Of a DNA stretch of 64,000 nucleotides, positions 15,686-54,435 are shown piece after piece (positions within the stretch are counted from its first letter, which is position 1; the number at the start of each line of letters is the position of its first letter). The notes under the pieces were generated by a model. It was given only the letters and a program-made list of their open reading frames with translations, was not told the origin of the DNA and ran no database searches. A program made the translations under genes and the position numbers. This stretch comes from Pezizomycotina sp. ARF18. Taxonomy: Eukaryota; Ascomycota. The stretch is taken from NCBI GenBank assembly GCA_002224055.1, contig AZLU01000012.1, positions 310,001 through 374,000 of the forward strand, in the 5' to 3' direction.

Positions 15686-17267
15686 TCACAGACCGCTCTC
15701 CGACATCTCCGACCCCGCCGTCCCCGGCCTCTTCAACCCAACCTCCCCTCCACCGTTCCTCTCGAGCGCCCTACTAGCCTCCGCCAGATCCCTCAGCGTA
15801 GCAACGGTGACATTCCCCACATTAACGTTAACCTCACGCAGCGGCAGCGCCGGCTGCCACGAGAACCTATTATCGTTGAACTCCGGCGTCGGCATCGGTA
15901 CGTATTCTCCGCTGTCGTCGGGGTGTATCATCGAGCTCATACCTTGAACTCGTATTACTCGAAACGGTGGAGGAAGACGGAGTATTGCGATGGCTGCGGT
16001 TCCACGGCTTCGACGGCATCGGTAGCGGCGGGGAAATTAGCGCGGCGGAGACGAATTGCTCCGGCGGTTCCGCTTCCTCGGCTACTTCTTCCAGTTGGGA
16101 GAAGCAAGAGTAATACGGCGCCGGAACGGGGACATTATTCCTCCTTCGAGTCCCTGCCGGATGCGCACGTTCTCTTCGTGCCACGGTAGGCACACGTGCT
16201 CGTCGTATACTTCCTGTATACACGTTGACACACCGTCGGGAGACAAGCTGATCAAATCGCTATCGGTTGTCGATGACCGGTATTGTCTTCCGGAGTGTGG
16301 ATTCGCAGTCGGCGCAGAGGATGTTTATGGACGCCCAGGTTCGGCCCCACGTTCTGTCTTCGACGCGGGAGAGGATGACGGTGAGGCGGGAGGAAGGGTA
16401 GCGCTGGCTGAGTTGGTATTCTATGTTGCGCTCGTGGTCGAGTTCGGGGAGGAAGAGGAGGTCGGAGTCGGAGGGGTTTGCTTGCGGGATTGTGGGATGG
16501 GGAGGGGTAGTGCGAGAGCGGGTGCGGAGAACTTGAAGGGGAGGGGATGATGATTGTATCGTGGGGAGAGTGGACGGGAGGGACGGAGAGGACTTCTTCT
16601 TCGGGCATTGGGGAGAGCGGTGGTAGCGGCGGCATCTATCGAATACAATCGTCAGTACTGAGAGTTTCTTTCGCACGGGGATACATGATTTGCTCACCTC
16701 TACTAGTACCTCCGTCTCGACCGTCTCCTCCACGACAACCCCATTCTCCTCCCTCGATGCCGACGATGCTCGACTAGAGTACCTCACACCCCCCGGCACC
16801 CTCAGGCTAACCCTCCTCGACGCCGTAACAGGCGTGTACGCAATAACGCTATTCCGACTGCTCGTCGAATCGAACCTCTTCAGCATGCACTTCGGCACAA
16901 TCCCCTCTCCCTCCCGCATTACTCCCCGTGCTACTATTCCTGCTAACGCCCCCACCGTACCCCGCATGGCTACTACACGTACTAGCGTGCCTGACAACGC
17001 CGCTCTCCGAGTGTTTTTCCAACTGTATCTGGTTAAACCTCTCGATGAGGTCCGGGTCGACGTCTTTAGGCCGCGCTGGAGGACACGTTTTAGGTTCTTC
17101 GCTTCTTCGCGGAGAGGTCGTTGTCGTCGCGGCGGAAGGAGTGGCGGTTTGTCCTCGAGGACGCGCCGGAGGACTTTCCGGATCATGTAGAGCTTTTGGG
17201 AGTCGGTGTACTTGTGGTACTTTGAGATTCCCCAGGATGACAGGCGCTTTTTGTACATTTGTTCTCT

Positions 17268-17309
<42 letters not shown>

Positions 17310-17663
17310 CGGAACGTTAGTATTATCTACTGCTATTGTATTTACTACATCGTGAACAGGGCAGGGGTAAAGTGGTGGAGGAGATCGTAACCAAGCAAAA
17401 GGGAGAAAAAGTGTAGCGGCAAACAGGGTATAGTCAAAAGGGAAGACAAAGTGAAGACGTTGAAAAACATACGTAGCGTCGAACCCTTCCTGCCTCCTCA
17501 TGATTTCGGCTACTTCGGACAGCGTGTGCTCGTCGATGAGGTACAGCTCCAGTATCTTCGAGCGGTGGTGCTCCACAGCCATCCCGGTAACGACGGCCGC
17601 CGGCCCGTCGGGAGAACGACGCCCGCTTGCCCGACCATGCCCGCCTGCTGCTGCGCCATCTAG
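15686..17663 (-). CDS. Clr5-domain protein 1
   Basis: The N-terminal Clr5 domain reads 'KILELYLIDEHTLSEVAEI' and 'RQEGFDAT', then after an intron (17266-17472) 'QMYKKRLSSWGISKYHKY'. Clr5 is a DNA-binding-like module named after a fission yeast silencing factor and is common in Pezizomycotina. The intron has a T34 tract directly before its acceptor. A second intron, 16636-16697, joins 'ETEVLVE' to 'MPPLPPLSPMPEEE'. The long middle is Ser/Pro-rich; the C-terminus carries 'HPDDSGEYVPMPTPEF' and 'NVGNVTVATLRDLAE'. The SS-x-GLS motif of the other loci was not found, so this is the most distant member. Frame shifts make exon limits approximate. Nuclear role inferred. Confidence 0.7.
17272..17305. 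repeat. A34/T34 tract in intron of Clr5 gene 1
   Basis: On the coding (minus) strand this is a T34 run ending three bases before the CAG acceptor at 17266-17268. It acts as an extreme polypyrimidine tract. It is the longest homopolymer in the window. Confidence 0.9.
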
Positions 17664-20233: not shown

Positions 20234-21989
20234 CTAAAAATAAGTCGGGAAATACGTAATTGGGCCCTGCGGAGAGCTCAGGCTCATCCGAGGCCCCGAT
20301 AAAATCAGAAGCATCGCGTTTGCTAAATTCTCGACCGTTTCGCTCGTTTCCCCTTTGTACATGGGGTTCCAAGCCTCAAATGGGGAACCGTCATGATCGT
20401 GGACTGGGAACGCTCGGGCAACGGGCGGGTCAACCTCTTCGCTCTGGTTCGAATGGTCTCCATCCAATGCGTGACGTTGTTATGAATCTCCTCGTGCGTT
20501 TCGAATCCGTATCCCGTTGTTATCAGTCCGTAGTCCTCTCCGCCTGTCCAATGTTCCTGATCCACCTTGCCCGGATCAGGATCTAGGATTGCGTTCTCGT
20601 TGCCTGCGTTTTTCTGGTTATAAGTCGCGGCCTGCAAAGATTTAGCATGGGAAACCTCTGCAAATTTTTCATCCGCAGCTTTGAACTGGGACCAGCGACA
20701 ACCGCCAGGTTCCCAGCATTTTTTAACTTCGAAGTTGAAGTGCGGCAGTGGTGAAGCATGGCCACATGTGAGCCCAGTAGCAGCGACGAAATCTTCCCTT
20801 CCGCTCCACTGGCCTGGGTTTCCCAAAAGTCGGAGGCTCACCCTTCCACGATGATGTTGATTCAGGAGGTGCCTTTGCTCAAAATTTTTCAACACTGCCT
20901 GGAACGTGTAGTACGTCGGAGTCGGTATCTTTGAGCTATCTGAATACCATACGTAATTGCTGAGATATAATATTCTGATCTCAGATATAGCCCGGACAAT
21001 CCGAACAGGTTACTTCGATCGGAAACTTGACTTTGGTGACGTCGCATTCGTTAAATCCAAATTGGAAGACATCATCGCGATACTTGTTCGACAAAGCTGT
21101 CACAGCATTTGTATATCCCAACGTTCTTCGAGATCGATCGGCGTTATCGTTGCTATCTCTGGAATCCGAGTCTCCTCAAGCAAGACTTCATTTTCTGGGA
21201 TGGTTGGTGTTGGCGGTGCACGCCCCTCTTTATTCGCAGCGTGTACGGGTTTTAGCGACTCGGCTGCTACATGAATGTCATTTGTAAACCGTCCCTTCCG
21301 ATATTGAAGCCAGAGGTACTTGAGGTAAATGTCGATAGGCCGTTAGAGCTTATGGAACTGCAGGTGGAAATAGCTACACAGCGAAAATATATTAATCAAA
21401 GTTGGATATAGTCTAGGGCATTCCGCAGATAAATTAGCGGCGAAGACAGGAGCCGCCGTCCTGAAATGAAAGCGCTGAAATGTAACGTAAGCGAATAGAC
21501 TTACCATCGCGGAATCGATCAATGGCGAATTTTCTCCCCAGTCCTCTTTTTACTTTTGAAGGCGGATTACTTCTTTCGAATGCTTCCAACGAACGGCCGT
21601 TTTCTTTGGAGGATTTTGCGACGACCTCGCGGCTACTTTTGCTGCTAAATACATCCATTGCCTATTGGTAAGCTTGAGATACTTTTCATTGCCTCCCCAA
21701 CGGCCTCGCAGACGAGCTTGTAGTTGTTTTTCGCTGTGAAGAAGATCAATGAATCCACGTTAGCATTTCAGGGAACTACGATATTAGTGCGCCACTCCAT
21801 ACCTTGCCATGAAACCCTCGGCTACCAGCTGTGCTTTAACGTCTCTTATTTCATGGCTTTTCCAGAGTTCTTCGATGCGTGGCTTCCAATTCTCCCATTC
21901 CTTTCGTCTATGGGCTCTTTCAGGTTCCGTCCTGAGTCTTTGGACGACGGCGGTAAATCGGGGGTGGATGCTGGCATGAATGTCAACAT
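20234..21989 (-). CDS. Clr5-domain protein A (tandem trio)
   Basis: First member of a three-gene tandem array by position. Clr5 domain: 'WENWKPRIEELWKSHEIRD', 'LVAEGFMAR', intron 21734-21802, then 'GRWGGNEKYLKLTNRQWMY'. Core motif: 'SSNGLSTFTSSTSGF' near 21.33 kb. CxxC module: 'FPIEVTCSDCPGYI'. C-terminal Cys/Trp tail: 'LLGNPGQWSGREDF', 'TGLTCGH' and 'CWEPGGCRW' (20.69-20.87 kb). The CxxC and CxGH groups suggest a metal-binding fold, but this is inference. The start at 21989 is the first ATG before the Pro-Ser-Ser-Lys leader shared with B and C. At least three one-base frame changes, one in an A run before the Clr5 domain and one near 21.55 kb. Confidence 0.75.
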
Positions 21990-22114
21990 TATGATAATTG
22001 AATTAACAGGAATTGATCTTTTTTTTTTTATCGATATATCGCCTGGAGATTTGTTCGTTTAGTCAGGTGACGATGTAACTGCTTGCACATAGAATATTGT
22101 AGGCACGGATGGTC

Positions 22115-22166
22115 TGTTTTTTGATGATGTTTTTGGAAGGTGTTTTTTGATGATGTTTTTAGAAGA
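22115..22166. repeat. 26-bp tandem duplication
   Basis: Two adjacent 26-bp units containing 'TGTTTTTTGATGATGTTTTT', differing at only two or so positions, lie about 130 bp upstream of Clr5 gene A, between the gene and its conserved upstream element. Confidence 0.85.
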
Positions 22167-22229
22167 GTATGATAGCGGGCGGAAAATGCAACACGAAGTC
22201 CTAGCCTCGTCTCAAGTTCCAGCCGTTGA

Positions 22230-22260
22230 CCAAATCCCTTTTGAACAAATTAGGAAATTT
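22230..22260 (-). promoter_or_regulatory. Conserved upstream element, Clr5 A
   Basis: In gene orientation it contains 'TTTCCTAATTTGT' followed by an A/G stretch and 'GGGATTTGG'. The same element lies upstream of B and C at 150-270 bp from the start codons. The intervening DNA has diverged more, which suggests a constrained regulatory site or a recent duplication. Confidence 0.5.
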
Positions 22261-22343
22261 TGTTTGATGTCCGTCTTGTGGCGGATTTAGTACTGTAGTA
22301 CAGAGATTCTAATTCAGTTGTCCTAGTTTATTAAATAAATAGC

Positions 22344-24122
22344 TTACGCCCCCAACGGTTCGATTACATCTGGTCTAGGCGCACTACTGATCGCATAATC
22401 TGGGAGATTGTAATAACCTGGTTCAAAATCATAAGGTCCTCCGTAAATCCTTAATTGGAGTTCGGGGAAGAGGCTTTGAAGCAAGTCATCCGCAGCTTTG
22501 GATGTAGCCGGAGGTGCTCGTCAGCGACAAGTTCAGACTTCTCATCAGGGTATAGATCGCCGAGGTGAGCGGCACGGTGGTCGTCAACGCTTCCCGAACC
22601 ACCATGGATTGGTGCGCAAGAGCCCTTACGGCCCTGGGTCCACTCTGCCGTCGCCTCGTTGTTATTAGTTTCCCACGACCCTTTCCTTGTTTCAAGAAGA
22701 TACCCGATCGGTCCTTCAAGTTCGCTCTCCAGGCCAGCAGTATTGAAGCCGTTACGGTCGAAACCTTCGTAGTCTCCAGCGTATTCTTTTGTTCTTGATT
22801 CGTCTTGCCCTGGTAGCCCCGGATTTCTTTGTCTTCCATATCTTCAGAGAGATTACGAAAAGGTATTTCCCACGAGCAGCCACCAGGTATAAAGCACTCC
22901 CAGCCCTTTTCAGAAGGAGCTTGCGGTGATGCACCATGCATGTGCTTGCATTGAGGTGCAAAAGCGCCGCTAGCCTGCTGTGCTTCAAAGTACCGCTGAA
23001 GCCTTCGCTGCACCCTTCTGCGGTGACCTTCATTTAGCAGGTGTCGTCGCTCGAACGACTTGAGGTTTTCTCGCAGAGATTCGCATAAAGCAGATATTCT
23101 CGCCAGTGGATCACCACCCGCAAGAGGACGTTGCGCGATATCGGTGGGGGGTTCCACTCGTAGTCTGGACAATCCGAACATGTAAACGCGTCCCCATATC
23201 TTTGTTCGTTGCAGCTAAAACGATCGTATGGGTACTTCATTTGTAATTCCTGAACAATCGCTGCTGGTGATGGCGGCGACCTTCCAGTCCGGGCCCCAGC
23301 GGACGCGGTTTCACCTCCGAGTCAACGGATTTTGCGTCCGAGATCTCCGAGCCTAGTTCATTCAAGAAACCATGAAGCTCTTCTTTAACTTTGAAGCCGC
23401 TTGTGCTAGACGTGTACGTGGATAAGCCATGGGAGCTTACGGTCCCGCACTCAGATATGACTGGTGAGTGAGTAGGAAAGAAACGTTTGTTAGTAGATGG
23501 CGACTCGACGGAGGAGTGCTAATAGTGGTAACTGCTTACCATCCAGGAAGTCTTGCCTCGCTAACCTTCTTTCCAAACCTTTCTTCAGCTTTGAAGCCGG
23601 AATTATCTCTTTGGTATCTTTCCAACGCACTGCTGTTTTGCTTTCGGATCCAGCGAGGATCTAGCTGCTATCCTTTGTGCGATGTGCATCCATTGCCTGT
23701 CGGTAAGCTTAAGATACTTGGAATTGCCTCCCCATTCCTCAAGGCGAGTTACAATTTGCTTCGCGCTACGTCATAAAAATCGTTGTTTTAGCTCCAAGAA
23801 GTGTCATAAATCGCAGCTATATCGAATGAAGGGCTTGCAAAACACTTACCTCGCGTGAAAGCCTTCTGCCACCAATGTTTCTTTCACGATCTTCAATTCA
23901 TGGCCGCGGTATAGTGCTTCGATACGCGGTCTCCATTTTTTGCCAGTCCTCTGCCGTAAGTTGCTGACCGGGTCCCGTTTTCTTTCTTTTGGATTTCGGC
24001 GGCGAATCTACAGAGAAGGCCTCGGCAAATTTTACCTTCTTAGACGCCGTGACCGGCGGTGGAGCTATACTTGAGAAGGCTTTAGCGAATTTGAACTTTT
24101 TGAGATTCTGAGTATACATCAT
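22344..24122 (-). CDS. Clr5-domain protein B (tandem trio)
   Basis: The N-terminus carries two related pieces, 'FKFAKAFSSIAPPP' and 'VKFAEAFSVDSPPKSKRKK', the second ending in a likely nuclear localisation signal. Clr5: 'RIEALYRGHELKIVKETL', 'AEGFHAR', intron 23766-23849, then 'RLEEWGGNSKYLKLTDRQW'. Core motif: 'SSHGLSTYTSSTSGFKVK'. Module: 'YPYDRFSCNEQRYGDAFTC' and 'SDCPDY'. The Cys/Trp tail is present but frame-broken ('CFIPGGCSW'). The C-terminus 'ADDLLQSLFPELQ' ends at a TAA at 22344-22346 and resembles the end of C. One extra A in the A6 run at 23936-23941 shifts the frame inside the Clr5 domain. Confidence 0.75.
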
Positions 24123-24276
24123 CTTGTCTTATGATTCTGAGGACCGTTCCTGAATAATTTAGATGCTTTTGATGTATCGACGAATATACTTATTGACCGG
24201 AAGTATCCCAGGTTACATACAGGTTGGATGAGAGAAACCCTGAGGCGAAAGCCTCGTCTTTAATCCATCCTTCCGT

Positions 24277-25055: not shown

Positions 25056-27134
25056 CTACCAGGTTCCCGCATTAAGCCCAGGAAAAAGGCTATATATCAC
25101 ATCGTCAGGTACTTCTCCTAATACATCTCCTGGAAGCTCTCCAAATACCTCTCCTGATATCCCATCTAATATCTCAACAAGCGCCTCATTAGTATCTCAT
25201 CTGATGTCCCATCTGTTACCCTTCTAGAGATCTCAATGGGCAATTCTTCCCGGGCTTGGGCTTTCGTGATGTCGCGGGGCGGAACCCATTTCCCATAAGC
25301 TTTAGTATTACCCATATCAGAACAGCTTGGGATATCGCGTGGTAGACCATGTGGTGTTCCAGCTACTGCCTCTTCTGGGCCCCCACTGGCAATTTACAGT
25401 CTATGCCGATACTTGGGTGCTCGGGATGTCGCGTGGTGGAACCCATTGCTCATTTGTTTCAATGACATGGGTATCAGAACGGCTTGGGATAGCTGGCAAA
25501 TCCTGCAAATCCGGGAAATCCGGGAAATCCGGCAACCTAGATTCTAGTGAAGTCTCCTGTTCAGTGCCGGCCATTCCATGGTTCTGAACCCACATGGCTA
25601 CGTCTTCGTAGTTGGTTTCCCTGCCACCTCGAATTACCCCTGAACTATCTCCATGAGCCTTATAGGATTCGGCTTCAAGAACCACTATATTCTTTCTGAG
25701 GCTCTCGCCACTTCGAGGGCCTTCCTTCTCTTGTCCAATTATCTCTTTTCCATTTCCTTCCCGCGGTATTTCGGGCATTTCTTGGAAGTTGGCTTCTTCG
25801 GACAATTGAGACACAAGTTTCTCCCTCTCTTGATCCTCTACGGTCTTCAACTGGACCAGCGACAACCACCAGGCGTCCAGCATTTCTCTAATTCGAGGCT
25901 AACATCTGGCGGCGGTACGTCGTGTCCGCATGTGAGGCCTGTATCACGCACAAACTGGTCACGCTTGCTCCATTGACCGGGGTTTCCCAGGATTCTCAAT
26001 TCCACCCTCCTACAGTGGCGTTCCTCGTTTAAGTGCCTCTCGAAGATATTGAGGACTTCTTCCAAACTATTGAAATACCGGGAAGGACTTATGATAAGAT
26101 CGTCCGGTGGCAAACCCATGTTTGGCGTGCGATCCCCTCAAAAAGTCTCGTGGGATCTGACGAGCGTCTAAAATTGATAGAAAAATCCGGACAATCCAAG
26201 CACAGAAGCTCGTACCCGGACGTCGGACCCATTTTCAAATAAAAGCTATCATTTGGGTATCTGGCCTTTAGAGCTCTGACAGCGAAAGGTTGCCAGCGAT
26301 CTAAAATCCCGATTCTAGGATCTGATGTAGCGTCGGATGTCCCTTGAAAGTTCATCAGTCTGCTCAGTAGTCGGATCCCATTCTTGATCTTGAAGCCGTT
26401 CGTACTAGAGGTGAAAATGGACAAGCCGTGAGAGCTTATAGACCCGCAGACAGAAAAGGCTATAAAATTATGAATAATGATATATCGATATGCGACCATT
26501 AGCGCAAATGTCATGATCAGCGAGAAATACACCGACCGGGGAGTAAATACTCGTATCTTCAAAAGCGTCTGCCACGCTATATACTCGTAGGGGCTCCTTA
26601 CCATCATAAAGTCGCTTTTCGCTAGCCTTCTTTCTAACCCCTTCCTAATTCTCGAACCCGGGATTATTTCCTTTGAAGCGCTCCAGCGGACTGCCGTTTT
26701 CTTCTCTTTATCCTGTGACAGCCTTATCATTGTCTTTTGTGCTACGTGAATCCACTGGCGGTCCGATAGCTTTAAGTATTTCGCATTACCTCCCCATTCC
26801 TCGAGGTGTGTTGCAAGCTGTTTCTCACTATACCAATTTCTTATCAGTATATCTGAACACATCTTCTATCTCCTTCTTTTCGGAACTTCAGCGACGTCCT
26901 CTATTCCTTCTCAGTTCGTTGGGTCGGTAACAGAAAGATAAGCTCTTACCTCGCCGCAAAACCTTCCCTTGCTAGCATTTCCTTTACCTCCTTTAACTCG
27001 TGTTGACGGTAAAGTTCTTCGATCCGTGTTTTCCACCTTTTCCAAGTCTTCGGCGGTATAGGTTCCGTTTTGCGCCTCTTAGAGATTGGCGGCGAGTCCG
27101 TAGAGAAAGCATCAGCAAATTTCACCTTTCCCAT
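25056..27134 (-). CDS. Clr5-domain protein C (tandem trio)
   Basis: Best-preserved member. The N-terminus 'MGKVKFADAFSTDSPP' and 'SKRRKTE' (likely nuclear signal) lead into Clr5: 'WKTRIEELYRQHELKEVKE', 'AREGFAAR', intron 26828-26949, 'HLEEWGGNAKYLKLSDRQW'. A further 'KEIIPGSRIRKGLERRLAK' block precedes a second probable intron near 26.46-26.60 kb. Core motif 'SSHGLSIFTSSTNGFKIK'; module 'YPNDSFYLKMG' and 'ELLCLDCPDF'; Cys/Trp tail 'LGNPGQWSKRDQF', 'TGLTCGH', 'CWTPGGCRW'. Then comes an acidic Glu-rich region with internal repeats (WVPPRDI; DFPDFPDLQD) and the end 'DDVIYSLFPGLNAGTW'. The start at 27134 was chosen by alignment with B. Few frame changes. Confidence 0.8.
25266..25500 (-). repeat. 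Internal repeats in Clr5 C tail
   Basis: Two blocks about 160 bp apart (about 25270-25345 and 25430-25495) share 'GGAACCCATT', 'ATCAGAAC' and 'GCTTGGGATA' in order. Both encode a 'PS-S-D ... WVPPRDI' unit. A 9-bp AAATCCGGG repeat lies at 25498-25540, and a short minisatellite encoding 'GEVFGELPGDVLGEVPDD' lies at about 25105-25165. Confidence 0.65.
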
Positions 27135-27318
27135 GATCGCAGGTGCACAGAGTATCCGTCCGAAGCGTAAGTTGCTCCTCTGATCGATTTCTATGGAGTC
27201 GCCTGCCCAATGTTTACTCGGAAATAATGTGCTCTTGAGACATGATGAATCTTCGGGCGCTGCCAGGGCATGCAGCCTTCTTTTAATCCCCACAAATTAC
27301 AATAGCCAAAACAAAGGG

Positions 27319-27348: not shown

Positions 27349-27349
27349 T

Positions 27350-31391: not shown

Positions 31392-33000
31392 ATGCAGATG
31401 TATCTACCAGGCCGGAGGACTATACCAGCGTCTAGACACGCTGAAGAAGACTGGGAGAGGAACAAGTCGCTTATAGTCACTTACTACTTAGGCCATAATC
31501 TGAACCTCTCAAAGGTCATCAGATTAATGAAAGATCAATATGACTTTCACGCAACGTACGCAATATTCTCACCCCCTTTTTATTGTCTCAGGAAGATGTA
31601 TAGTTAACAAAACATACTTTTTGTATAGGGAACAACAATACAAAAAGAAGTTCAGGGACTGGGGAATCCGTAAAAATAACCCCAGCTTCACGACAAAAGA
31701 CATGGACTACATGCTACAGACAATGGCAGAGAGGAATGCGAACGGGAAGCCAAGGACTGGTTGGCGGCTGAACGGTCGTATGCTTGAATATCTTAAAATG
31801 AGGAGACTTTTCAGAAGCGCTATCAGATCAAGAATAGACGCACGTAGGGGTAAATACCCCCTTGTCACAATGCCGGAGCTTGCTTTGTTGTTTGCTGCTT
31901 TCTTTTGTTTTACAAATTTTATATTCTTTCTACTTGTGTACCATCTAAGCGGTTTCTAGGAATCTTTATTATGAGCGCAGTTTCCGTTCGCTTTGCACTA
32001 TATGCTAACTTATAAATCAGTCATTGAAATGGAGCCTCTCAGTCCTTGTCCCGGCCTGTCTCCAATCACGCCTGAGCACCACGGCTGCGAACCTCACGGA
32101 GCTGCGGAGTTGTTCGCCCGTATTTTCAGGCGGCCTCGGTCAATGAGTTCCCTACCAGGACGCCTTTCGGACCTCCTCAACGCTCATCCACCGTTCCCGC
32201 CACTCCGCCAAACACAGATTATCCGTACGATACAATCTCTCCATCTCGTCGCATCGCTTTGGCAGACGACCTCCTCCACTACCTGAATCCCGTTATAGCC
32301 CTGCTGGTCTATTTGCTGTCGAAACTGCGGACGACCGGGAGCCAGGTTTTCTCAAAATCATCATAACATGCAATGATTGCAATTTAGTGTTTCAGTATTC
32401 GCTCTCCTTCCCACCAGGAACGACACCGACGAATCTAGACGCCTCGCTGCGAAACTTATTCCACCGCTGTCGTTGCGATTCGAAGCCGAGCATATATCGA
32501 CTTCCGGCACAGGAATAAAATTCTCGAGCGGTTCTGCGGACACTGCTTTTACGCCGCCGCCTCTTGTTCAGCGCCGCAGCTTCGGCAGGGATTACCAGTA
32601 CGCAAGAGATGAATTATTTCCCTGCAGACGAGCACGAGCTGGCAGCAGCGTGGATAACGGCAGCTATTCGCTGTCCAGCGCGGATTTGTGGTCCGGCACG
32701 CCAGTATCGTCGGCGGAGGGAGTGCAGTGGGGGCAGTTTGTCAATTTTGATATCTGGAGCGATCAGAATCAAGTTTCAGCAACAGCAACACCCGAGAGTG
32801 CCCGGACACGGATTGGGACTCGAAGGATTGCAAGTTTCAGTATTAATTCCCCGAGCTCAAACCACGGTTCTCTCCGGACCCGTGTTCTTACCTTCGGACT
32901 AGCTCAACCCCCGACCCGCAGAACTTATGATCTCATAAGACTTTCGGCGAGAAGCTCGAAATTACTTCCTTTCCTTTTTTTTTTTTTTTTTCGTTTATCG
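31392..33000 (+). CDS. Clr5-domain protein D
   Basis: The start at 31392 begins 'MQMYLPGRRTIPASRHAEED'. Clr5: 'WERNKSLIVTYYLGHNLNL' and 'KDQYDFHAT', intron 31556-31628, then 'QQYKKKFRDWGIRKNNPSF'. The following helical block ends 'MRRLFRSAIRSRIDARRG'. A second intron, 31850-32020 with a TGCTAAC branch, joins in frame to the core motif 'SPCPGLSPITPEHHGCE'. Downstream are 'DTISPSRRIALADDLLHYL', a Cys-containing 'LFHRCRCDSK', and a C-terminal 'NGSYSLSSADLW' that may be a diverged form of the SLSDI tail. One or two frame changes after 32.14 kb. The 3' end lies between 32.9 and 33.1 kb. Single gene, not in tandem. Confidence 0.7.
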
Positions 33001-42113: not shown

Positions 42114-42153
42114 AGAAAGGCATTTGTATAATCGAAGAAACTTAAGCATGAGG

Positions 42154-43463
42154 TCAGAACTTATCCTCCTCTTCCCATAAGCTATCCATGAGTATATCAT
42201 GAATACTCAGTGGTGCAACATCCCTCGGCGAATCCCTCCTAAGATAAGTACTGCTATTTGGAACGCAGCTACTGGCTAGCAACTCGCATCTTACCAACCG
42301 AACGTCCTGCCTACCTTCAGACCCTCTCAAGATTGTTGGACCCGACTTCTCCTCGCAGCTTGGGGGGAACATTCTGTTAAACACCTTATACTGGTGTGGC
42401 GCAGTGAAAATGTGCTCTTTCTCGAATTTATCAAGAAGGTAGGACCAAATTGCCAATAAATTGTGATCGGAAGACAAAGGAGTGTTGGGAGTGAGGGAGA
42501 TGGTGACTTCGTCGTGTTCGAGGCAGTCTTTGCATTTTAGAAGAAGTAGCTGCCGAGAGGATGGTAATGCTATTATGGAAACGGAGAAACGGTCGCCGTA
42601 AGGATGGGTTTCATGGACGTGTTTCTTTAACTCTTGCGTTATAGAGGAGTATGAACAGGGGTGATGAGGTTGAGAGTACTGAGCTCTACAAAGCGACGGA
42701 GAAGAAGATTTTTGGAGATGAGAGCTGGGGGTCTGAGGTTTACTGGGAGCGAATGCTCGTTGTATGATCGAATCGGCACTAGTTATTATTATGAGTTTGG
42801 TCCCATATACGCGTACAACGAGACTTGATGATCAAAATGACTCACTATCGTCTATCGTTGTCCTTCAATACAAGCTTTACGCCGGCAGCTTCCGGTGGTG
42901 TGAACGGGGATATGCCACAAGGGCTACCGTCAACGGCCTTTTCTGGTGACGAAACCCTTACTGTTTCAATTAAGTAATTTGGTCAGTTAACGTTTAACTT
43001 CAGAACAAGAAGGGTTCGGAAATAGAGCTAACCCTCAAACGCTTCATTATCTAGCGCTCTCTGAAGCGTTCTTTCGACTTTTGAAGAATTGACGACCTGC
43101 CCATTCAGTTTGAACGCGGTGTCCTGCTTCCCCTGACGGAAACGGTTAATAAGCTGCAGGTACATGAACCGCAGTTGTTTAATGCTGTATTTATCGTATT
43201 TTGTTATCCCCAATCTCTGAATTTGCGTTTATACTGCGGACACTATCGGAGTGAAGGTCAGTTACTATAGTTCATAACAAAGTAATAAAAAGGGGTGGTT
43301 CCTGACCGGAGAGAATTGATGAAAGAAAACGGGAACCATACCTAGCGACGAACCCTTCCCGCTCCTCCATTATAGAAACAACGCGGGGTAGCTCGTACTC
43401 GCTGTATAACGCCACGATCTGCTCGCGATGTTGCTCCCATTCCTCGCTGGAGTGACGGGGCAT
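42154..43463 (-). CDS. Clr5-domain protein E
   Basis: The start at 43463 'MPRHSSEEWEQHREQIVAL' opens directly into the Clr5 domain ('ELPRVVSIMEEREGFVAR'). An intron of about 120-130 bp follows (donor GTATGG near 43.34 kb), then 'QYKRKFRDWG', a one-base break, and 'KYDKYSIKQLRFMY'. A second intron (about 42.92-43.03 kb) follows 'LQRALDNEAFEG' and leads to the core motif 'SPCGISPFTPPEAAGVKL'. The last long exon has 'HPYGDRFSVSIIAL', the CxxC pair 'LLKCKDCLEHDEV', and ends with the tail 'PLSIHDILMDSLWEEEDKF'. That tail matches the ends of F and G. No Cys/Trp tail. Likely nuclear. Confidence 0.75.
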
Positions 43464-45500
43464 TGCCAATGGTTTGTTTGGCGAGTAGTGCCTTCTCCAT
43501 ATAACCGACATGTTTACAATCGTTCCATTCGAACAGCGGGCACTTCCTTGAGGGTTCAGTCCAAGATCATAAAAGTTCTGTAATAGATGATACCGATGTC
43601 GAAGGCGCAAAAAGAATCGAATTGGGAGTTGAAATCCGTCGCTGGCCATTAATTATCCCTATAAACCCGCGAGACTCTGGGGGCTGAGCAGCGCCGCGAA
43701 TTGGGATTACTGTCCCAAAAGTATTTTTGCCGTATTTGGGTCAATTAGGTTAGTTTAAGCGAGTGATTTTTAACCAAAAGGAGTAAAATTAAGGGAATTG
43801 AAAATCTAGAGATATCCTCTGCTCGTAGTTCACCTCCATAAACCTCTGGATAGAGAACCAAGAGTATGGAGAACGAAGAGTTGAGTGCAATTATATATAA
43901 TGATATTAAATGCTCATATTTTTTATAACTTATATAGGGTATGGATTGATCTTCCTTCTTTGTTGCTACGATCAAATATCATGGAGCAGCATTTACCGCC
44001 AGCTAAATGAAACCACGGCTACAGCCTGCACAATAGCCTCAATAGATATCACTTCTAGATATACCCGGATGTAAAATAACGAAATTCAACTATCACTTCT
44101 AGACGAGCCCTGTGAAGACTAACAGCATCGCAAAAAAAAAAAAAAAAAAAAAATTGCCGTATATCGATATATACAGATTATTTTATACTAGATACATCCA
44201 TATTTTCTACTTTCCGACGCTGCGTACGGCTAGCTATTTTGCATTGCTCCCATTAGATTCACCGCAGTCTTCGTCAGTTCGATAAACCCCGGCCCATCTT
44301 CAGTTAAAACACCTCGTATTTGGAATTTAACCACAATTTCTAATAGCTCAAAAAACCTCTATCCACGGTTTCTAATACTCGCAAATTTCTTTCACATGAT
44401 TCCAAATCTCTATCGTTCCAGATTCTTATCGGTTGGAGAGTTTCCTAAGAAATCTAGATTCAATCTTTGAGCGACTCTGATGGGTATATCAAATTCTCTC
44501 CCAAACCTACAAAGCCTTCTTCCTGGAGATTTGTCGATCAATTATATGCTATGAAGGCATGCTAGTCGAAAGTATATCTCCCTACTTGGTTTAGCTCTTC
44601 AAACTTACACTTGAAGGCTTTGCAGATTGCTTGCAGAAACACAGGAGGTGTTTGGTGCCTTGCATGATCTTTCGTCCAAACAAACGACGTTCTCGAGAGA
44701 GTTTCTCGATTATATTTTCACCGATACGAAGCAACCTACTAGATTCAGGGGTAGGTATCGTTAGAAGAATCGCAAATATGCAAACAAACGCTCACGAATT
44801 TGCGGCGGAGGTGGTCTATCACGGTGCTTTTTCCAACAATCATAATTCTCCATTGGGTTTAGCCGTTTCAGACTCAGCCCGGCGATTCGGGAGACCCTTT
44901 TCGGTGTTGGCCTCTGGCCCAACGATCAGGGAGACAAATTATTTCGAGAACAGCGCCTCAAACGCTATAGAACAATCCTGAACATTTCCAGATTTAGAAA
45001 TAAACTTCTGTTGAGATGCAGCAGAAATCTCTGCAAGTATCCAGTGTTTAAAGAATCGTCAGAACCCAAAATCTTTCCAATACCGCCAGATGTTGCCGCT
45101 CAAGGTTCGAGGATCGTTTCGTTCTGCAGGCCCAGAAGGCTAGTATGCTGAGCAGCAAACAGGAAGGAAAATTTTCGTCAAGTTTTATTTGTGGATCCCC
45201 TTTCCACGTCATCTATTGGCTGAAAAAACTCTTAGCGGTCGCCGGGCTTGGTTTTCCAAAAGAAGCGGGGAATATAATAAGCACGGTATTGCCTCCTTGT
45301 CTCCAGAATCTCCATCATCTACTCCACCTTATACTCCCAATCATTATAGCTATATAGTCCACATCATCAGAGGTCCTGGAGCTGGCGATAACAGAGATCC
45401 TTGTAGCCCCCGTAACCTGAACCGACCACCTCCCTTTTTTGCCCTTTTAAACCTCCGACGCTCTCCATCAAAGACCACCCCATCCCCGACACTGCCGGCC
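43464..45500. other. Intergenic, no supported gene
   Basis: Divergent spacer between Clr5 E (minus) and Clr5 F (plus); it should hold both promoters. It contains an A22 run at 44132-44153. The 44.2-45.4 kb part has scattered short open frames without motifs. Confidence 0.5.
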
Positions 45501-47206
45501 ATGGCATCTCTCTCAACAATATCATGGCAACCTACTTACGGCGAGCGATCTACGACACCGAGAGCCCGGAAAACCGACAAGAAACGCGAGCTCGAAGATA
45601 TACCCCCGAACAGCTAGACTGGAGAATTCTTTCTACCCCCGACGCACCTCCGGCCTCGAAACGCCGGAAAGCTACGTCCAACCATCACAGCAACGAGGAA
45701 TGGGAGAAGCACAGACAGACTATCGAGGACTTATACCAAGTCCACGAGCTACAGGATGTAGCGAACATCATGGCTAATGTTTACAACTTTGATGCTAGGT
45801 AATTAGGTCTCTTTGGCATGCAAGGGCTCAGACTCAAGCTTACAGAAGATGGTTTCCGCAGTATTCCGCAATACAAGCAAAAGCTGAACAAATGGGGTCT
45901 CCAAATACACAAAGTTCTCCGCCAAACAGCTTCTATACATAGCACAAGAGGTCGTACGGCGGTCTGGACAGGAGAAAGGTCCGGCATTCCGCCTCAACGG
46001 CAAGCGATTAAATTCCCGGAATATCGAGAGAGCACTCAACAGGAACCTGAACGGAAAGGACGGAAAAGACTTTGAGGGTATTTCCCTCTCTTGCCTTTAT
46101 ATTTTCATATAAATTACATGGACCAAGCTAAACCTCCTATCTTTAGTTGCATCTTTGGCCTCGGCTATGAGTTCGTGCGCATTATCCGGATACACTTCCA
46201 GCACCCGCGGTGTAAAAACATCCTTCCTCACCCTGATCGGCGAAGAATCGATCAGTTACCCCCAACCTCCGACAAACATCGCCAAATGCCTCGTAAAAAT
46301 CAACAACCTCAACCACCACCTCAACCGACCCCCCGGCTCTAAAAAATCCTCCTCCAGAGCACCGAAACTCGATCCTATATTTTCCGACAAAGAGAAAGTT
46401 CAAAACTACCTCAACCAAGCACTCGAACTCGTCCGCAGTGGAGGCGATGGCAGTGTGGACTTCCAGCTCCGCGGCTTATTCATCCCCGAAGAGATCCGCC
46501 TTTTGCTGTGTTTTTTTCACCTCATAAACTCCCACAGACACGGCGAACCGTTCTCCGCTTTCAGGGTGCAGAACTGTTTTAGGAAGCATATCCGGAGAAG
46601 ATTTTTATCCGAAGGACCCACGCCAGAATGCTTCGAAGTCCAGTGTGCGTGGTGCGGATATTCTCGCGAGTACAGCGCGGATCCAGAACTCAGCGCCGCA
46701 ATACAGCACAAGCTTACCCGAGGTACCTGGTCGGACAGATTTATAAAAGACGTCAAGAAATTTGCGTTCGCGCACGAGGAATTCTACTCCTGGAAGAGCG
46801 AGTTCGGGGCGTCTAAGGAGGATTTACCCAAATTGGCTAGCTACCTAAGAGAATGGGAGGCGGTAGACGTGGAGCGACGGGCCAGCATGGAGGAGACTGA
46901 ACTAGCTGCTAACATGGAACGCCTTCCGATACGACTGAGACTACTGAAAGCACAGAGACATCAGGCTCCACGGATTCAGACGATCTGGGAGATATCCGGA
47001 TTATACAGAACGGGAACGACCTTGAGATCGTTGACTCGACAGGCCAAAATAGGATCTCGCTGAGCGATATTCTCCTATCCGACCTCTGGGAGGAAGATAG
47101 TGAAGGACAAACCGAGGGCACTGGCAGTACTCCGAAGGACGATACCTCGAATGACTCAGGGTCTCCCCGTGAATTGTTGATTTCTTGGATGATGAATGAT
47201 TTATAG
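45501..47206 (+). CDS. Clr5-domain protein F
   Basis: The N-terminus has a charged leader with 'SKRRKATSNHHSNEE' (nuclear-signal-like). Clr5: 'WEKHRQTIEDLYQVHELQD' and 'NVYNFDAR', an intron of about 64 bp from 45800, 'QYKQKLNKWGL', a break, then 'KYTKFSAKQLLYIAQE' and 'FRLNGKRLNSRNIERAL'. A second intron starts at about 46081 and ends in TTTAG near 46145. Core motif 'SSCALSGYTSSTRGVK'. Middle: 'IPEEIRLLLCFFHL'; CxxC module 'FEVQCAWCGYSREY'. An acidic Ser/Thr/Asp region with 'TDSDDLGDIRI' precedes the tail 'RISLSDILLSDLWEEDSEG', which here is followed by about 30 more residues. The stop TAG is at 47204-47206. At least two frame changes. Confidence 0.75.
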
Positions 47207-48774
47207 TAGGATATTATTGATAAATTTAGCGGGTTTATGTGGTAATTACGATGAAATTCTTGTCGCTTAGATGCCTGACGTTTACGTAGCACAAGTGTAA
47301 TATTTAATAGTTTTTAATATGTATATTATCGTGATGTCACTAAATATTGTGCTCAATTTATACTCGATGGTGGCGCCGGAATATAATAGTTGGGTTGAGT
47401 GAGGAAAGAGCCGTTCTTTCATAGGATCCATGAATTTAAAAAAACCCCTCTGAGATCTCTTTCCTTTATGGAGTTTGTGCAGCGACACTCTTTCTATTCA
47501 ACACGCAAATCTTATCTCTGAGGTTTAATCCTTCCTTTCGCTCCATACTTTGTGAGTGTTTCAATTATCTGTTTCTTAAAGTCTCGTCGTGTAAGACGAG
47601 GGTTATAGCCGTCTCGATGTAGCTTTAGGTGAAAATCAGCCTCAAGCATTACTACGGCGGAATTCCATGAAGGGGGTTAAACCGCGACTTGTTTGAATGG
47701 TCTGGTGGGCTTGTGTTCCACACAATCCATTGACATAATCGCGATTATTTGCATTTTGTAGTGATGCTGAAAGCTAGGCTTGTATCTGCTTCGCTCTCAA
47801 ATGCATAACGTCCTAGGAGGCTTTAGTAAACCCCTGAATGTTGCCGAGAAAGGGATTGTGTTTATATATGACTCTACAAGACGGTATACTATGCCGATCT
47901 CGTGATGATCATTGAATTAGAGTGCGGCGGTTATTTCAACTATTTGCTGTGTTCCCATTCTCATTTGGCTTCTGGGAGCGCAGATTGTCGGATTTCTCCC
48001 CAACGCGTGGCGTCATGCATAAACGGTGGCAATGGGAACAGCCCTGCCTCGAAGACCTTACCGCAGGTAGCGGGGCTTTAGAGCATGAAGCGCATTCACC
48101 TACATCGGAAACTTGAAAGGGTAGACTTTTTTGTCCTATAACAAGATCGGGAAGATGCTCAGAATGGCGAAGGCGAGCGTACCTGTTGTCCATGCACGGC
48201 CGTTGTGATTTGTATCCTTCTAAATATAATAATGTCTCGCGTTAGTTAGTACCTTCGTTATATATAGGCAAAATTCGGGGCTGTTCGCCTTATATACTAG
48301 GGCTTAGATTGTTTCAATTAGCGGGTAATGCGATTGACAATGTGTGTGCTTCGCCTTTTGGTATTTAATGTATGTAAAAGTTGGGAATTTGTGTAACAAT
48401 GGCTTGTGTCCAGTGAATCGTTTCCACCGCCGAAGAAATGAGTATAAATCCAAGGACATCCCGTTGCCTATAATATATGGAGGAGTACTCACAGTCCCAG
48501 GTCACATAGTTTACTCCCTCGCTCTACAGAAACTCTAGCCTTCTTGCTCCAGTGCTCGCAAACTCCTTTACTTTCCACTTTAAATTTTATCCCGAATTAC
48601 TTCTACTCATTCACCTTAAAACTTCTATCCCTGAGGCCCAGCTACTATTGGCTCTTTATAACCCTTATCTACGATAAATACCCTTAAGATCACCCTGCCA
48701 TAGAGATTAAAATCTCGACTCGTTGCAAATTACTATGCTATATTAACCCCCTTTTGATCCGTTGATCTTCTCCT
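47207..48774. other. Intergenic, no gene seen
   Basis: No supported coding region. Short frames on both strands near 47.9-48.2 kb lack motifs. Confidence 0.5.
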
Positions 48775-49390
48775 TAGTGTAGCGCAAGCTGCACCTTCGA
48801 TCGGCCTCACCCGGAATCCGGAAGGGCGGGTAACAATCGTTTGACCAGGCGAATGGATCGACGTCCAGGTCCTGACCCTGACCCGTAGACATGTTCACTC
48901 ACCTCGCAGATTCCTCCTTAAAATCGGGTGGCACCCCAAGCTCTGGCCACCAAGGTCGGGGGGAATTGCAAGTGTCCGAAGATCGAAAGACGAAACGGGT
49001 TTGCCCGGCAGCGGATGAGAAAGATCATCCCGAACGCGCGCTCGCAGAGATGTGTCGCAGAAAGTGTAGGTGCAGAACGGGTGGAACTAATCGTACAACT
49101 CATTTGGTGGAGCAGCGCATCTCCAAGAAATAATATCCAATCGCGAACGCTTCTCCGCTATATCCGCTTCTCGGGGCAGACCCTAGCAAGCCTTTAACCG
49201 AGGAAGAAGATTGGCGTATAAGGCTCGAGGCTGATGATAGATGCTCGAAGCTCTGCACCGAGTGCGGTTGGCGAGTACCCCCAGAGAAAAAGAAGGCTGG
49301 AACTGGAACCGCTGCTAAAGCCGCGCCGACCGGCGAGAGAGCCGGCGGCGACGCGGGCCCCAGTAATCTCAGAGGTGGTGATGCTCATGC
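48775..49390 (+). pseudogene. Secreted Cys-rich family, copy 4 (decayed)
   Basis: Inverted relative to copies 1-3. It keeps part of the signal peptide and mature start ('LLLSVAQAAPSIGLT'), a middle piece 'RKTKRVCPAADEKDHPERA' that matches the second Cys cluster of copy 1, and 'CRRKCRCRTGG'. No continuous frame joins these parts. The downstream flank to about 49690 matches the downstream flank of copy 2. Most likely an old segmental duplicate undergoing decay. Confidence 0.6.
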
Positions 49391-49399
49391 TGGCGCCGT

Positions 49400-50290
49400 G
49401 GCATGGATAGCCACATGGGATATCTGAATGGGCTCTTTTCCTTTTGTCCGTTTTATCTTTCCTATCGGCATACGATACTGTTATCCTACATAGCCTTTTA
49501 TATATATATTTACTTTTTAATTTATATTATTTATTCTTTTATTTTACTACTATTCTTTCCCTGCTTCTCTTTTCTCTTTTTTTGCTCCGAAATATTATAG
49601 CTTTTACATATAGAGTAACTAACTATATATAAATAAGTAGCTTCAAGTTAAGTTATCTATAATAATAACGGTTAGCCTTAAACTTGGTACGGTTTCCCGT
49701 TAGATATATATTTGAAGCTATAATAATATTTATTTTTTTTTTTTTTTAAGTTTATATATGATAATTTTTTAGGCTCATCCATTCATAATACTTTTGATAA
49801 TTAAATTTTTATTACCTTATATAGTATATAATATTATAAATAACTATAGACTATATAAAATAATTGTTACAGAAATCCACCTCAGTAATATAGTAGCACG
49901 AACCGGTATATATTGTAGGGTTGACACCGACTAAGCGTACTATTCCTAGAGGTCTTATTATATATAGCCCTTTTTGTTTTTTAAAATGAAAATTATCCGA
50001 AGAGCAATGATATTAAAAATTGAAATTCTCCCGGGCCGAATTTCAGGTGAACAAGTAGAATAGCAGGAACGAGAGGTCTATGATTCAGCCAGCTGCATTG
50101 CCTTCTCGGCTCAGACTGTATGTATCACTGACCGTTATTGAAGGTCTGGCACGTTGTGTAGAATCAAAGTCGGTTTGTCCCTCAGACCCAATCGCATAAC
50201 TAGGACGAGGTTTTCCACATTGCTTGTCTTTTCAATTTCGATCATCGCCACTTTCTGACTTATACAGTATATCACTTTAAACATATTATC
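49400..50290. other. AT-rich island with mutated duplicate
   Basis: From about 49500 to 49990 the DNA is strongly AT- and TpA-rich. Its left part is the AT-shifted counterpart of 2900-3160. The pattern fits repeat-induced point mutation acting on the duplicated segment, but this was judged by eye. No gene is seen before the DUF2235 start. Confidence 0.55.
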
Positions 50291-50300
50291 AATTCGCAAA

Positions 50301-52296
50301 ATGGCCGAGAAAAATTCTCCAACCTTCAATTTTACAGGATCTAAACCCGTAGCCTCCCTGCAGCCGAAGAGGATAATCATTTGCCGCGATGGCACTTGGC
50401 AATCCTCAGTCACTAAAAAGGCCAATATACCTTCTAATGTTACGCGAATTGCACGTTACTACCGGAAAAGCTCGGAAAAGACAAGGACGGGCGAGATTGG
50501 CCTCAAATCGTCTACTATGTACGATGCGGGTATTGGGACTGGCGTTCACCCGGCGGAAGCGAAACGACAGGGAGGCACCGGATCTGGGCTTTTGGGGAAT
50601 GTCATCGGGTATATAATTTCCTCGGGTTGAACTACAACCCGGGGGACAAAGTATTCTGTTTTGGATTCTCCCGGGGCGCATACACTGCCAGAGCCGTTGC
50701 TGGACTCGTCACGGATATCGGTATTATCAAGCCGAGAGACATGCAGGATTTCCCCGAGCTGTACAGGGTTTATCAAGCCCACAAAGACTCCCACTCTTTC
50801 AGGGCATCTAAACAATGGCGTGAATGGGTGGAAGGGAAACGCTCGTTCGACCGGGCTCACAAGAATCTCCCTGTGGAGTTGAAGAAGATCATTTGCATGG
50901 GAGAAGGTACCCCACGCTGCCGCTCCAGAATCCAGCAGATAGATCGAAGCCATTGGTGTTTTTGATACAGTTGGCAGTCTGGGCATCCCCGAAATAAGTG
51001 GTATAAAAGGATGGTTTGCAGATCGCCTTGGGGACAAAATAACAATGGAAGACTTTGGGTTCCATAATGTAGCGCTCAGTCCATGTGAGTACCCCTAGCG
51101 GCACGCGGAGCTATTACGTATAGCTAAAACCGACTGAACAGATATCAAACACGCTTATCATGCAATTGCGTTGGATGAGCATCGCAAGCCATTAGATACC
51201 ACGCTATGGCATTTGCCAACGGACGCTGTAGCAGAAATCCCCACGCCCGAAGCTTCAAGCAGCCAACTTAGGAAAAATTAGAAAGCTCTTCAAAAATAAA
51301 GCTGATGGTACGGAGTCAGAGCTTTCGACAGCCTGGAAAAAACTCATTAACGCCTTAATGTATGAAGAACTAAAGGGTCCAAGTCCAACCTCCTCCAGGC
51401 TTGGTTTTCGGAGTCCACATCAATATCGGAGGAGGGCATGAGGGTATTTTCAAAGAGAGGAAAAGCGACTTCGAACGTGAGTGGCCGATGGCAGTCTCTA
51501 TTTTATGCAGTCCTAATGGAATAAGTTCCACTACATTTTTTTTTCTTGGTGATCCAAAGCTGATGATATACAGAGATCGCCATGGTGACTTTTAATTAGA
51601 TGGTAGAGCAGCTGAGATCGCATCTTTCTTTTGAGCAGGATGTAACTGAGATATCGGAAAAATGGGATTTGTTTGCAGTTATCTCTCCGTACTCGACGAG
51701 CTCAAAAGAAGGGGTTCGAAGATCACTGGCTTCGCCAGAAGATTAATCGAATTATGGCTCTATGCTCAGCAGGACCGAATATCTGGAGGGTAATAAACCC
51801 ATGTGGGCAAGGGCCATTATCACAGATATTTGCAGGTGCTGGGCTACTGGTCCATTGATTGAAAGCCATGAAGGTTGGATGAAGTTAGGAGACGAGCCAT
51901 ACCGTCGACCTGGAGAATACAAGGAGACGAAACTCAAGAGCGGCGCCATTGTTAAACTGGGGCTGACAAACGAACAAATTCATCCTACGGTCAAGTTTAA
52001 AATGGATCAAGTTGGCGATTACCGGCCTACGCCCCTCAAAGACTTTAAACGTCAACGAGTGGTCGACAGTAAGACCAAAAAGGTTACCTATGTATAGATC
52101 AAGGATGATGTTCGGATCCCGGGATATAAGATCAGGGGATGGAAAGTTATGAGCGTTCCTATATGTTTCATGATAACTCAGCCAGGGAGTTCGTCGGTCG
52201 CCTGGATAAGGAGTATGGCATTGATTCACGTGAAGCTCAGGCTTTAGACCTTGGCTTCTTTCAAAAAGAATGGGTTCTAGGAAACAAAAGAACTTG
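50301..52296 (+). CDS. DUF2235-family alpha/beta hydrolase
   Basis: Matches the large fungal DUF2235 family, a lipase-like alpha/beta hydrolase fold. Landmarks in order: 'KRIIICRDGTWQSS' (family start, usually CDGTW), 'PSNVTRIARYY', 'YDAGIGTGV', 'LNYNPGDKVFCFGFSRGAYT' with the nucleophile elbow GFSRGA, 'AVAGLVTDIGIIKP', 'IGVFDTVGSLGIPE', an intron near 51084-51141, 'YIKHAYHAIALDEHRKP', 'VHINIGGGHEG' and 'YRPTPLKDFKR'. Essentially the full family length is present. The reading frame is interrupted several times, so it is either decayed or affected by assembly error. It sits between Clr5 F and G; no functional link is evident. Confidence 0.75.
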
Positions 52297-52801
52297 AGGA
52301 GAGGGTGCGTTTTTCAAGCCTTTACCACCACTTGTGTATTTATTACTATCCGAGGCCACTGAGTGGTGCAGATCTTTCTTTCTTTTCCTCTTACTAAGGT
52401 CTCCAATCGAAGTTCTATTCTTTCTTGACATGGATACTTAAGTAATTTAACACTAAATATGACTATCTATTCTACCGTTAAGCTAGGAAACCTACAGGCC
52501 CAACGGCCCTACTCGCTAAAGCACTAGTTTTACTTCTGTCACTTGTCCTCTAAAGAAAATTCATCCTACTCATGACATCAGAAACTCCCATGCACCTCAT
52601 TAAATTCGCTAAATACTTCTAGATTGGGGATTCAACTTTTGGTTTTCAGTCTTGGTGGATTGTAGCGGCACGAGGCTGAATGACTTTATCCCCATCTCGG
52701 ATTATTGAAAAAGAAGGCAATGTACGTGCTCAGATTACTTCTCTTATCCTTGTTCTATCAATAAGGAAGTTATAGAGTCTCACTCTTTGGGTCCATACAG
52801 C

Positions 52802-54435
52802 ATGCGAGCGAAACGCAAGGCCCGTTCAGACACCAGTCTAGCGTCCAGGAAATCGCGAGCAGGTGCAGGTGGAACCAAGAAAGGAAAGCAGTTGCGGCAG
52901 TCTTCGTCTGCGCAATGTGTCGATAATGTTATCAGCTGGCAGGAAGTGTCTACGCCCGGCCATCCTCCCATCAGCAGACGGCGGAGGGGAGCAGAGAGTG
53001 CTACGTATCACACCGAACAGGAATGGAAGAACTTGAGATCTGAAATAGAATCATTATATCTGGAGCACGACTTGGAGGGACTTGCTTCCATCATGGCCGC
53101 GAAGTACGGGTTCGAAGCTAGGTAAGCTGTGTGGCTTTTCCTCCTGTGGACGACGACAACGTAAATACTAACTGAGAATCGATATTTATCAGACCCTCAC
53201 AATATAAAGCCAAACTGAGTAAATGGGGTGTGGGAAGTATCTGAAGCTGTCTGTGAAACAGGTTCTTTACATCATCCGAGAAACAATAAGGCGATCGAAT
53301 TCGAGTCCGGGATCTTGCGCGGCTACAGCTTTCAGGTTGCACGGGAAAAGATTGAATTCATACAATTTACAACGAATACTAAGGCGCAGAATGGAAGATG
53401 AGAACTTCAAAGGTATGCAATTTTACCCGGCTCGCAAACGTAGATGTCTGTTTTGTTGTGTTTCTCTTTTGATGTCGGGCTCTGAATGATTCGTCTTAGC
53501 CTCCTCCCTCGTTTCAGCATTGAGCTCTTGTGGTCTGTCCGCATACACACCTAGCACGGTCGGTATAAAAATACACGTTACAAGGCGCCAAAAGAGAGCG
53601 AACAGAAAGAACGTGACTTTGTTTTACGCATGGAAGGAAACGATTGCCTCATCAGCGGTAACCCTGGCCGGGGTGATCTTATGTTCGTTAAATATCCGCT
53701 TAGAGATGACCACCTGTACATGCTGCCGGGTATACTGCTTCCAAGGTTGTTCGATCTATCTTTCAACCTACTATCTACCACCGAATCTTCGGACGCGCCA
53801 CTGGCTATTCCTCTGTATTCCAGCTGGGGTAGCGAAAATGAGAGCCTCGTGCGAAAGGTTACGTTTCCCAGTTTAAGGAAAGACATGCTGCCTGACGAGA
53901 TCAGGTTCATCCTTTACTTTCTGCACTTATCCTATCCCGATGGAAATGGTCCGAGACGGTTCACTGCAACGTTCGATAGCGCAACGGAATCAGAAGACGA
54001 AGGAGCACAGTTTCGCTACACGATCGAATGCTGCGGGTGCTCTTACACCCACATATACGACTTCTCATCTACGACTTCAGCTACAAACTACTTCAAAGTC
54101 TTCAACGAATTCCTAAAAAGTTAAACGATTTCGCGGATGATTTCTTCTCCGGTCACCAGAACTTCATCGACAATGAGACTATTGTCGATGAGCTCTCAGA
54201 ACACTATGGTATCGACTTTGGTATCGCTTGGCAGCGTATCCCATCCGAATTATTGCTACGCACGCGTGTCGGTTCAGACAGCGACTTGTCAGTCAGTGCC
54301 GATATTATCGACGATTGGACGGCCGAATTATCGGTCGTTGATTGCGACCCTAATATTGAACATGGCGAAAGTGATCGGATGTCCCTGAGCGATATCTTCA
54401 CGTCGGATTTATGGGATGAGGATGACAGACAATAG
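52802..54435 (+). CDS. Clr5-domain protein G
   Basis: The N-terminus 'MRAKRKARSDTSLASRKSR' is strongly basic (nuclear signal likely). Clr5: 'WKNLRSEIESLYLEHDLEG' and 'AAKYGFEAR', intron 53122-53192 with a perfect TACTAAC branch, 'PSQYKAKLSKWGV', a break, 'KYLKLSVKQVLYIIRE' and 'FRLHGKRLNSYNLQRIL'. The second intron runs from 53413 to a TTAG acceptor near 53500. Core motif 'SSCGLSAYTPSTVGIKI'. Then 'LPDEIRFILYFLHLSYP' and the CxC/CC module 'YTIECCGCSYTHIYD'. The acidic end has 'DPNIEHGESDRMSLSDI' continuing 'FTSDLWDEDDRQ', stop 54433-54435. Closest to F in layout. Three frame changes in about 540 codons. Confidence 0.8.

Follow-up and report, generated by a model that had tools for sequence, protein, structure and literature searches.

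The window analyzed here is a 64,000-nucleotide stretch of the Pezizomycotina sp. ARF18 genome (46.4 Mb in 408 contigs), namely positions 310001-374000 of contig C12 (AZLU01000012.1). It holds eight genes with a Clr5 domain, here called loci 1, A, B, C, D, F, E, and G and given in window numbering. An initial annotation had placed Clr5 loci at these eight positions, and all eight pass the Pfam cut-off for the domain (PF14420, 22.3 bits; a model 54 positions long) once their intron is removed, scoring 32.5 to 69 bits (F was scored from exon 1 alone, at 39.0 bits). The loci and their blocks are as follows.

Locus 1, 16142..17582, minus strand: exon 1 ends at 17473; intron 17266-17472; exon 2 extension from 17265; Clr5 62.7 bits (spliced, Pfam); CxxC block 16278-16436; probable H-x5-H helix 16142-16273, in a different frame, by pattern.
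Locus A, 20326..22002, minus strand: exon 1 ends at 21803; intron 21734-21802, then exon 2; core 21300-21368; CxxC 20984-21109; H-x5-H helix 20806-20907; CGH...CWxPGGC block 20683-20775.
Locus B, 22400..24128, minus strand: exon 1 ends at 23850; intron 23766-23849, then exon 2; core 23378-23452; CxxC 23148-23261; H-x5-H helix 22984-23091.
Locus C, 25400..27180, minus strand: exon 1 ends at 26950; intron 26828-26949, then exon 2; core 26377-26451; CxxC 26170-26298; H-x5-H helix 25970-26071; CGH...CWxPGGC block 25850-25939.
Locus D, 31440..32410 (3' end provisional), plus strand: exon 1 ends at 31555; intron 31556-31628; exon 2 from 31629; Clr5 69 bits (spliced); weak core-like SPCPGLSPITP 32032-32085; candidate CxxC 32348-32410.
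Locus F, 42157..43480, minus strand: exon 1 ends at 43342; intron 43243-43341, then exon 2; core 42872-42931; full CxDC/H-x5-H module 42340-42657; C-terminal LSIHDILMDSLWEEED 42157-42216.
Locus E, 45416..47107, plus strand: exon 1 ends at 45798; intron 45799-45861, then exon 2; core 46161-46226; CxxC 46623-46673 without H-x5-H; C-terminal LSDILLSDLWEED 47048-47107.
Locus G, 52709..54435, plus strand: exon 1 ends at 53121; intron 53122-53192, then exon 2; core 53514-53573; CxxC 54008-54064 without H-x5-H; C-terminal LSDIFTSDLWDEDD 54373-54432.
Tle1-like phospholipase catalytic domain, 50438-50965, plus strand, between E and G: PF09994, E 1.1e-25.

Run exon by exon against the whole genome, the Clr5 model finds 30 places at E ≤ 1e-3; the window accounts for six (1, C, D, E, F, and G), all over the Pfam cut-off as well; exon 1 of A alone reaches 16.1 bits, under the 22.3-bit cut-off, and exon 1 of B alone gives no match to the model. 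A ninth family member lies just outside the window, at about C12:307.1-307.7 kb. Clr5 is the first recognized block at all eight loci, whose start codons are putative, and a basic stretch precedes it in C, E, and G. For exon 1, each locus was left out in turn and sought with a profile of the remaining seven in a set of 13105 six-frame pieces that came from 41 stretches; seven loci came out at rank 1 to 7 and D at rank 23 (E 0.005). The leave-one-out searches with exon 1 and exon 2 give the rank of each locus against a background rich in relatives: 35 of the 40 nonwindow stretches had been fetched for a Clr5-type match, so that better-ranked pieces are often relatives. A sequence search of the PDB with Clr5 gave no convincing relative.

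All eight loci also share one GT-AG intron of 63 to 207 nt, in phase 2 and at the same codon. The initial annotation had reported this common intron and left its acceptor in E open; the E intron is 45799-45861, with the acceptor ccgcag followed by T. The earlier placement of the intron right after the Clr5 block holds for the block as then drawn but not for the Pfam domain, inside which the intron cuts, because that domain continues into exon 2, where its last part is encoded. The exon-2 extension beyond it was recovered by leave-one-out at all eight loci (ranks 3 to 20 of 13105 pieces, E 1e-6 to 1e-16); a structure model of exon 2 was poor (pLDDT 56).

Downstream of exon 2 lies a core motif, SSCGLSxYTxSTxG, which is clear in six of the eight loci. 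Leave-one-out placed 9 of 10 tested sequences at rank 1 to 5 of 13105, the one missed being D, and the full core profile matched family loci on which it had not been trained, with E 3e-8 to 2e-4 at L039, L047, and L042 and weaker values of 0.004 to 0.02 at L036, L029, L034, and L016. Seven loci had originally been credited with this motif: six stand, the core-like SPCPGLSPITP of D is weak and was not recovered, and a profile search of locus 1 found no core motif.

The CxxC module of the initial annotation proved to be half of a larger block, CxDC...FExxHx5HxxxVxxR. Its second half, the helix FExxH-x5-HxxxVxxR after CxDC, was revealed by L036, a gene on contig C34 that carries core and module in one 509-amino-acid open frame. 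A, B, C, and F have the larger block in full, E and G have an altered form, and in D it is putative; it is probably complete in locus 1 as well, where H-x5-H is known from the pattern alone (profile rank 519, not recovered). Leave-one-out with window-only training picked up the CxxC stretch by itself in A, B, and C. It missed D, E, F, G, and 1, even when four relatives were added, D ranking 26 with window-only training and 18 and 11 with relatives. The claim of a CxxC module in six loci therefore fails in the form in which it was made, since the stretch alone does not pass leave-one-out for these five. Locus F is supported through the H-x5-H helix, some 30 to 60 residues downstream of CxDC.

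In leave-one-out searches this second block took rank 1 in A, B, C, and F and in the relatives L036, L047, and L038, and rank 2 in L027. Two loci outside all training sets matched in part, L040 through its CxDC block (E 1.5e-6, against 0.3 for the helix) and L031 through its helix (E 0.009, against 5.7 for CxDC). Whole-module profiles built separately from contigs C23 and C29 (two sequences) and from F and C34 (three sequences) align with each other (probability 88%, E 2.8e-6), and the invariant columns of the F/C34 set include CxDC, both histidines of H-x5-H, one valine, and one arginine. As a pattern, H-x5-H is found in five of the eight loci on the sense strand (1, A, B, C, and F) and in none on the antisense strand, with one occurrence per 52 kb of flanking strand; this pattern, the strict C-terminal pattern described below, and the training sequences of the core, C-terminal, and module profiles were all chosen after the data had been seen. 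The pattern is absent from D, E, and G, and of 38 other loci scanned, just the four that had gone into the profile carry it. Locus E and the ninth gene have the altered block in common (pairwise E 5e-6), and pairwise runs align short stretches of G with E (E 8.7e-5) and with the ninth gene (E 0.002). A further block, CGH...CWxPGGC, is present in A, C, C23, and C29 and in altered form in B; the C-terminal part of A matches C12 (B and C), C23, C93, and C29.

An AlphaFold2 model of the F module, made from a nine-row alignment of unchanged window translations, comprises a helix, three strands, and two helices at moderate confidence (mean pLDDT 77, pTM 0.59; a single model without a decoy). Loci 1, A, B, C, and F show the CCHH ligand pattern, which D, E, and G lack, and from this spacing alone we infer that the module is of zinc type. 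A Pfam scan of eight proteins at E ≤ 10 gave no match over cut-off, whether for the module or to a zinc-finger family; one phage zinc-binding model matched below its cut-off (E 0.045, 14.1 bits against 27). Fold searches of the PDB and of viral folds with the module gave no convincing relative.

Three of the eight window loci (E, F, and G) end in LSxxDIxxxLW with acidic residues, and the same LSxxDIxxxLW motif occurs at loci on C34, C72, C127, C9, and C3. Leave-one-out recovered it for all eight sequences tried, three of them window loci, at rank 2 to 6 of 13105. A strict pattern, written after the first cases were known, has 8 matches in 234 kb, all at family loci, compared with a mean of 1.25 and a maximum of 4 in shuffles. 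Genome-wide, a DNA pattern for the motif hits 23 places and its reverse 7; seven of the 23 are already known family loci (three on C12, three on C34, and one on C72), and one led to L049 (C3:327500-333000). This locus, found through the C-terminal pattern and absent from the Pfam search list, has Clr5-like, extension, and DILxxxLW pieces.

The narrowest account of these loci would be that only Clr5 is homologous and that the downstream motifs are chance look-alikes. The leave-one-out failure of the CxxC stretch at five loci points that way, as does the finding that single module sequences used as queries retrieve little beyond themselves. However, the extension, the core, the H-x5-H block, and the C-terminal motif all pass leave-one-out, and the module profiles match each other, so we regard this account as extremely improbable. 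The loci belong, as had been proposed, to one superfamily whose homology runs past Clr5 through the exon-2 extension and into downstream blocks that align above background; more than Clr5 is held in common. Taken whole, the initial observation is partly confirmed.

One-base frame breaks occur at many loci (1, A, B, E, F, G, and probably C), which could mark the cluster as a relic in which most copies are decayed pseudogenes. As a control we examined chaperonin genes (Cpn60/TCP1), where breaks too short for an intron occur at seven of eight loci. Counted mechanically, these come to 13; in two of them the flanking fragments overlap strongly, by 370 and by 148 nt, and one locus, C139, rests on a 71-nt overlap. 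Because chaperonin genes break alike, we do not read the breaks as decay; they look like assembly noise, which suggests systematic indel errors in the assembly, and whole-protein frames cannot be derived from it. Splice sites are kept at all eight loci, moreover, and short motifs near the C terminus are still conserved, so that a cluster of relics seems quite unlikely. Mobile-element open reading frames, or a domesticated transposase, would suit copies that are both dispersed and clustered. Yet the pieces scanned have no transposase family among their Pfam matches, the copies are only about 30 to 60% identical, and the intron is common to all. Inverted repeats of at least 20 nt are lacking at A, B, C, D, and G; E has one weak pair inside it, F has one weak palindrome upstream, and locus 1 has 58 pairs, of which the five shown are poly-A/T. 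A mobile origin is, on this evidence, very unlikely.

A tree of Clr5 plus the extension groups A, B, and C with a C23 gene (support 0.95), E and G with the ninth gene (0.87), and D with other loci (0.90). Three C34 genes join one C219 gene (0.97), the fourth C34 gene falls elsewhere (0.996), and F and 1 stand beside C57 and C119 loci with support under 0.7. The deep nodes are uncertain because the alignment has only 105 columns, with gaps. The eight window loci are several lineages and not one clade, and a single tandem burst does not seem to have produced the cluster. The cluster on C34 has four extension-bearing genes in about 31 kb. A second Clr5 exon 1 lies on C34 some 0.7 kb upstream of the first, at 4647-4757 on the minus strand of L029 (C34:152000-157500), and C34 may have a further or partial copy. 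The clustering in mixed orientation noted initially stands: when about 48 genes, our own tally of the family from genome searches, were placed at random in 5000 trials, no 58-kb stretch ever held more than four.

The suggestion that this is an accessory region found no support. With contig ends as a proxy, family loci are no nearer to them than chance (34 positions; p 0.19 for a 10-kb and 0.43 for a 50-kb margin), and the window resembles other loci in GC and RIP indices, without a RIP signal. Some 20 kb beyond locus G, however, contig C12 ends in AT-rich, RIP-like sequence, and its last 6 kb (L048, C12:384001-390032) have a GC of 0.234 and RIP-like indices of 1.29 and 0.40, unlike the window. 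Some ordinary genes lie between the Clr5 loci: 5 of 20 nonfamily open reading frames scanned have Pfam matches over cut-off, namely a Tle1-like hydrolase (50.4 kb) and a methyltransferase (39.3 kb), both between Clr5 loci, an F-box protein, and two pieces of a rhodopsin-like gene that match the fungal rhodopsin domain. Together with the Clr5 family, this domain suggests the gene content of a filamentous ascomycete. The window also holds a small family of Cys-rich proteins (WRPxCxNxxIGxxCxxxCxC-like) in three divergent copies, at 925-1446, 3521-4024, and 6440-6943 (minus strand), with a possible fourth at 49134-49424; a genome search with one copy at E ≤ 1e-3 listed that copy alone.

We consider the best explanation to be a large family of nuclear, zinc-containing regulators of DNA or chromatin, and we give this reading about an even chance. 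Clr5 with the exon-2 extension would dock the protein on DNA or chromatin, and the conserved short core motif follows. The compact zinc-type module, with CxDC on a beta hairpin and H-x5-H at a helix junction, could serve as a second binding surface, to which A, B, and C would add the CGH/CWxPGGC-like block. The acidic C-terminal peptide LSLSDILxxxLWEED, present in E, F, and G as well as in several relatives, may recruit a transcription or deacetylase cofactor, judging by its acidic-aromatic make-up; it is reminiscent of acidic activation peptides, for example the one in p53. Duplication and divergence would have produced the many members, some of them in two dense clusters. Given a zinc-type module and an acidic C-terminal peptide, the simplest reading is a nuclear regulator that would contact DNA or chromatin at its front and a cofactor at its back. 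The initial interpretation is partly supported, in its one superfamily with homology past Clr5 and in its clustering. What the data show is anatomy, homology, clustering, and a module model of moderate confidence; nuclear site, zinc, DNA contact, and cofactor are inferred, like the initially suggested role in chromatin or DNA recognition.

The same cluster might instead be an array of silencing factors, in which each Clr5 paralogue recognizes its own repeat or locus and recruits deacetylases, the repertoire of recognizers being under turnover. Deep divergence between neighbors, a shared architecture with variable middle parts, the clustering itself, and the published link of Clr5 to silencing would all fit; the acidic C terminus, however, fits activation equally well, and we think such an array unlikely. 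More speculative still, by analogy with vertebrate KRAB zinc-finger arrays, clustered and diverged Clr5 proteins with a new zinc module might each be aimed at their own repeat or locus and recruit chromatin cofactors, which we regard as a long shot. The blocks described here give one Clr5 subfamily an anatomy open to test: its unnamed zinc-type module, its core motif, and its C-terminal peptide are all short enough to be expressed, mutated, or tethered. The dense natural cluster, in turn, is a place to ask whether neighboring paralogues differ in their targets.

Among known systems, the module invites comparison with the general class of C2H2-type zinc fingers, which carry C-x2-C and H-x5-H on a hairpin and a helix. 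It differs in the loop of about 30 to 60 residues between the two pairs, in its extra helix and strand, and in lacking a Pfam zinc-finger match over cut-off. A literature search of a limited open-access library found no paper on the combination of module and Clr5 and turned up little functional work on Clr5 families, large as these are in some filamentous fungi. One report links Clr5 to silencing in fission yeast, in one pathway with the deacetylase Clr6, and names a Fusarium Clr5 gene among several mutated in an H2A.Z suppressor strain (PMC7608984). The F. graminearum protein FGRAMPH1_01G26683 (PMC7608984) has an N-terminal Clr5 in a longer protein (537 amino acids), an arrangement that the window loci probably have as well. 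PF14420 is listed under "transcriptional regulation" in a table of PMC6525431. In another study, the Clr5 orthogroup OG0000643, with 85 members, is expanded in psychrophilic Dothideomycetes (PMC11412873), a likeness to the window loci in gene family expansion. The Clr5 domain and its expansion are thus already known, and the module is without a Pfam name. With the PF14420 family, founded on Schizosaccharomyces pombe Clr5, the eight loci share a Clr5 domain over cut-off; their core motif, CxDC/H-x5-H module, and acidic C terminus, in contrast, lie outside its 54-position model.
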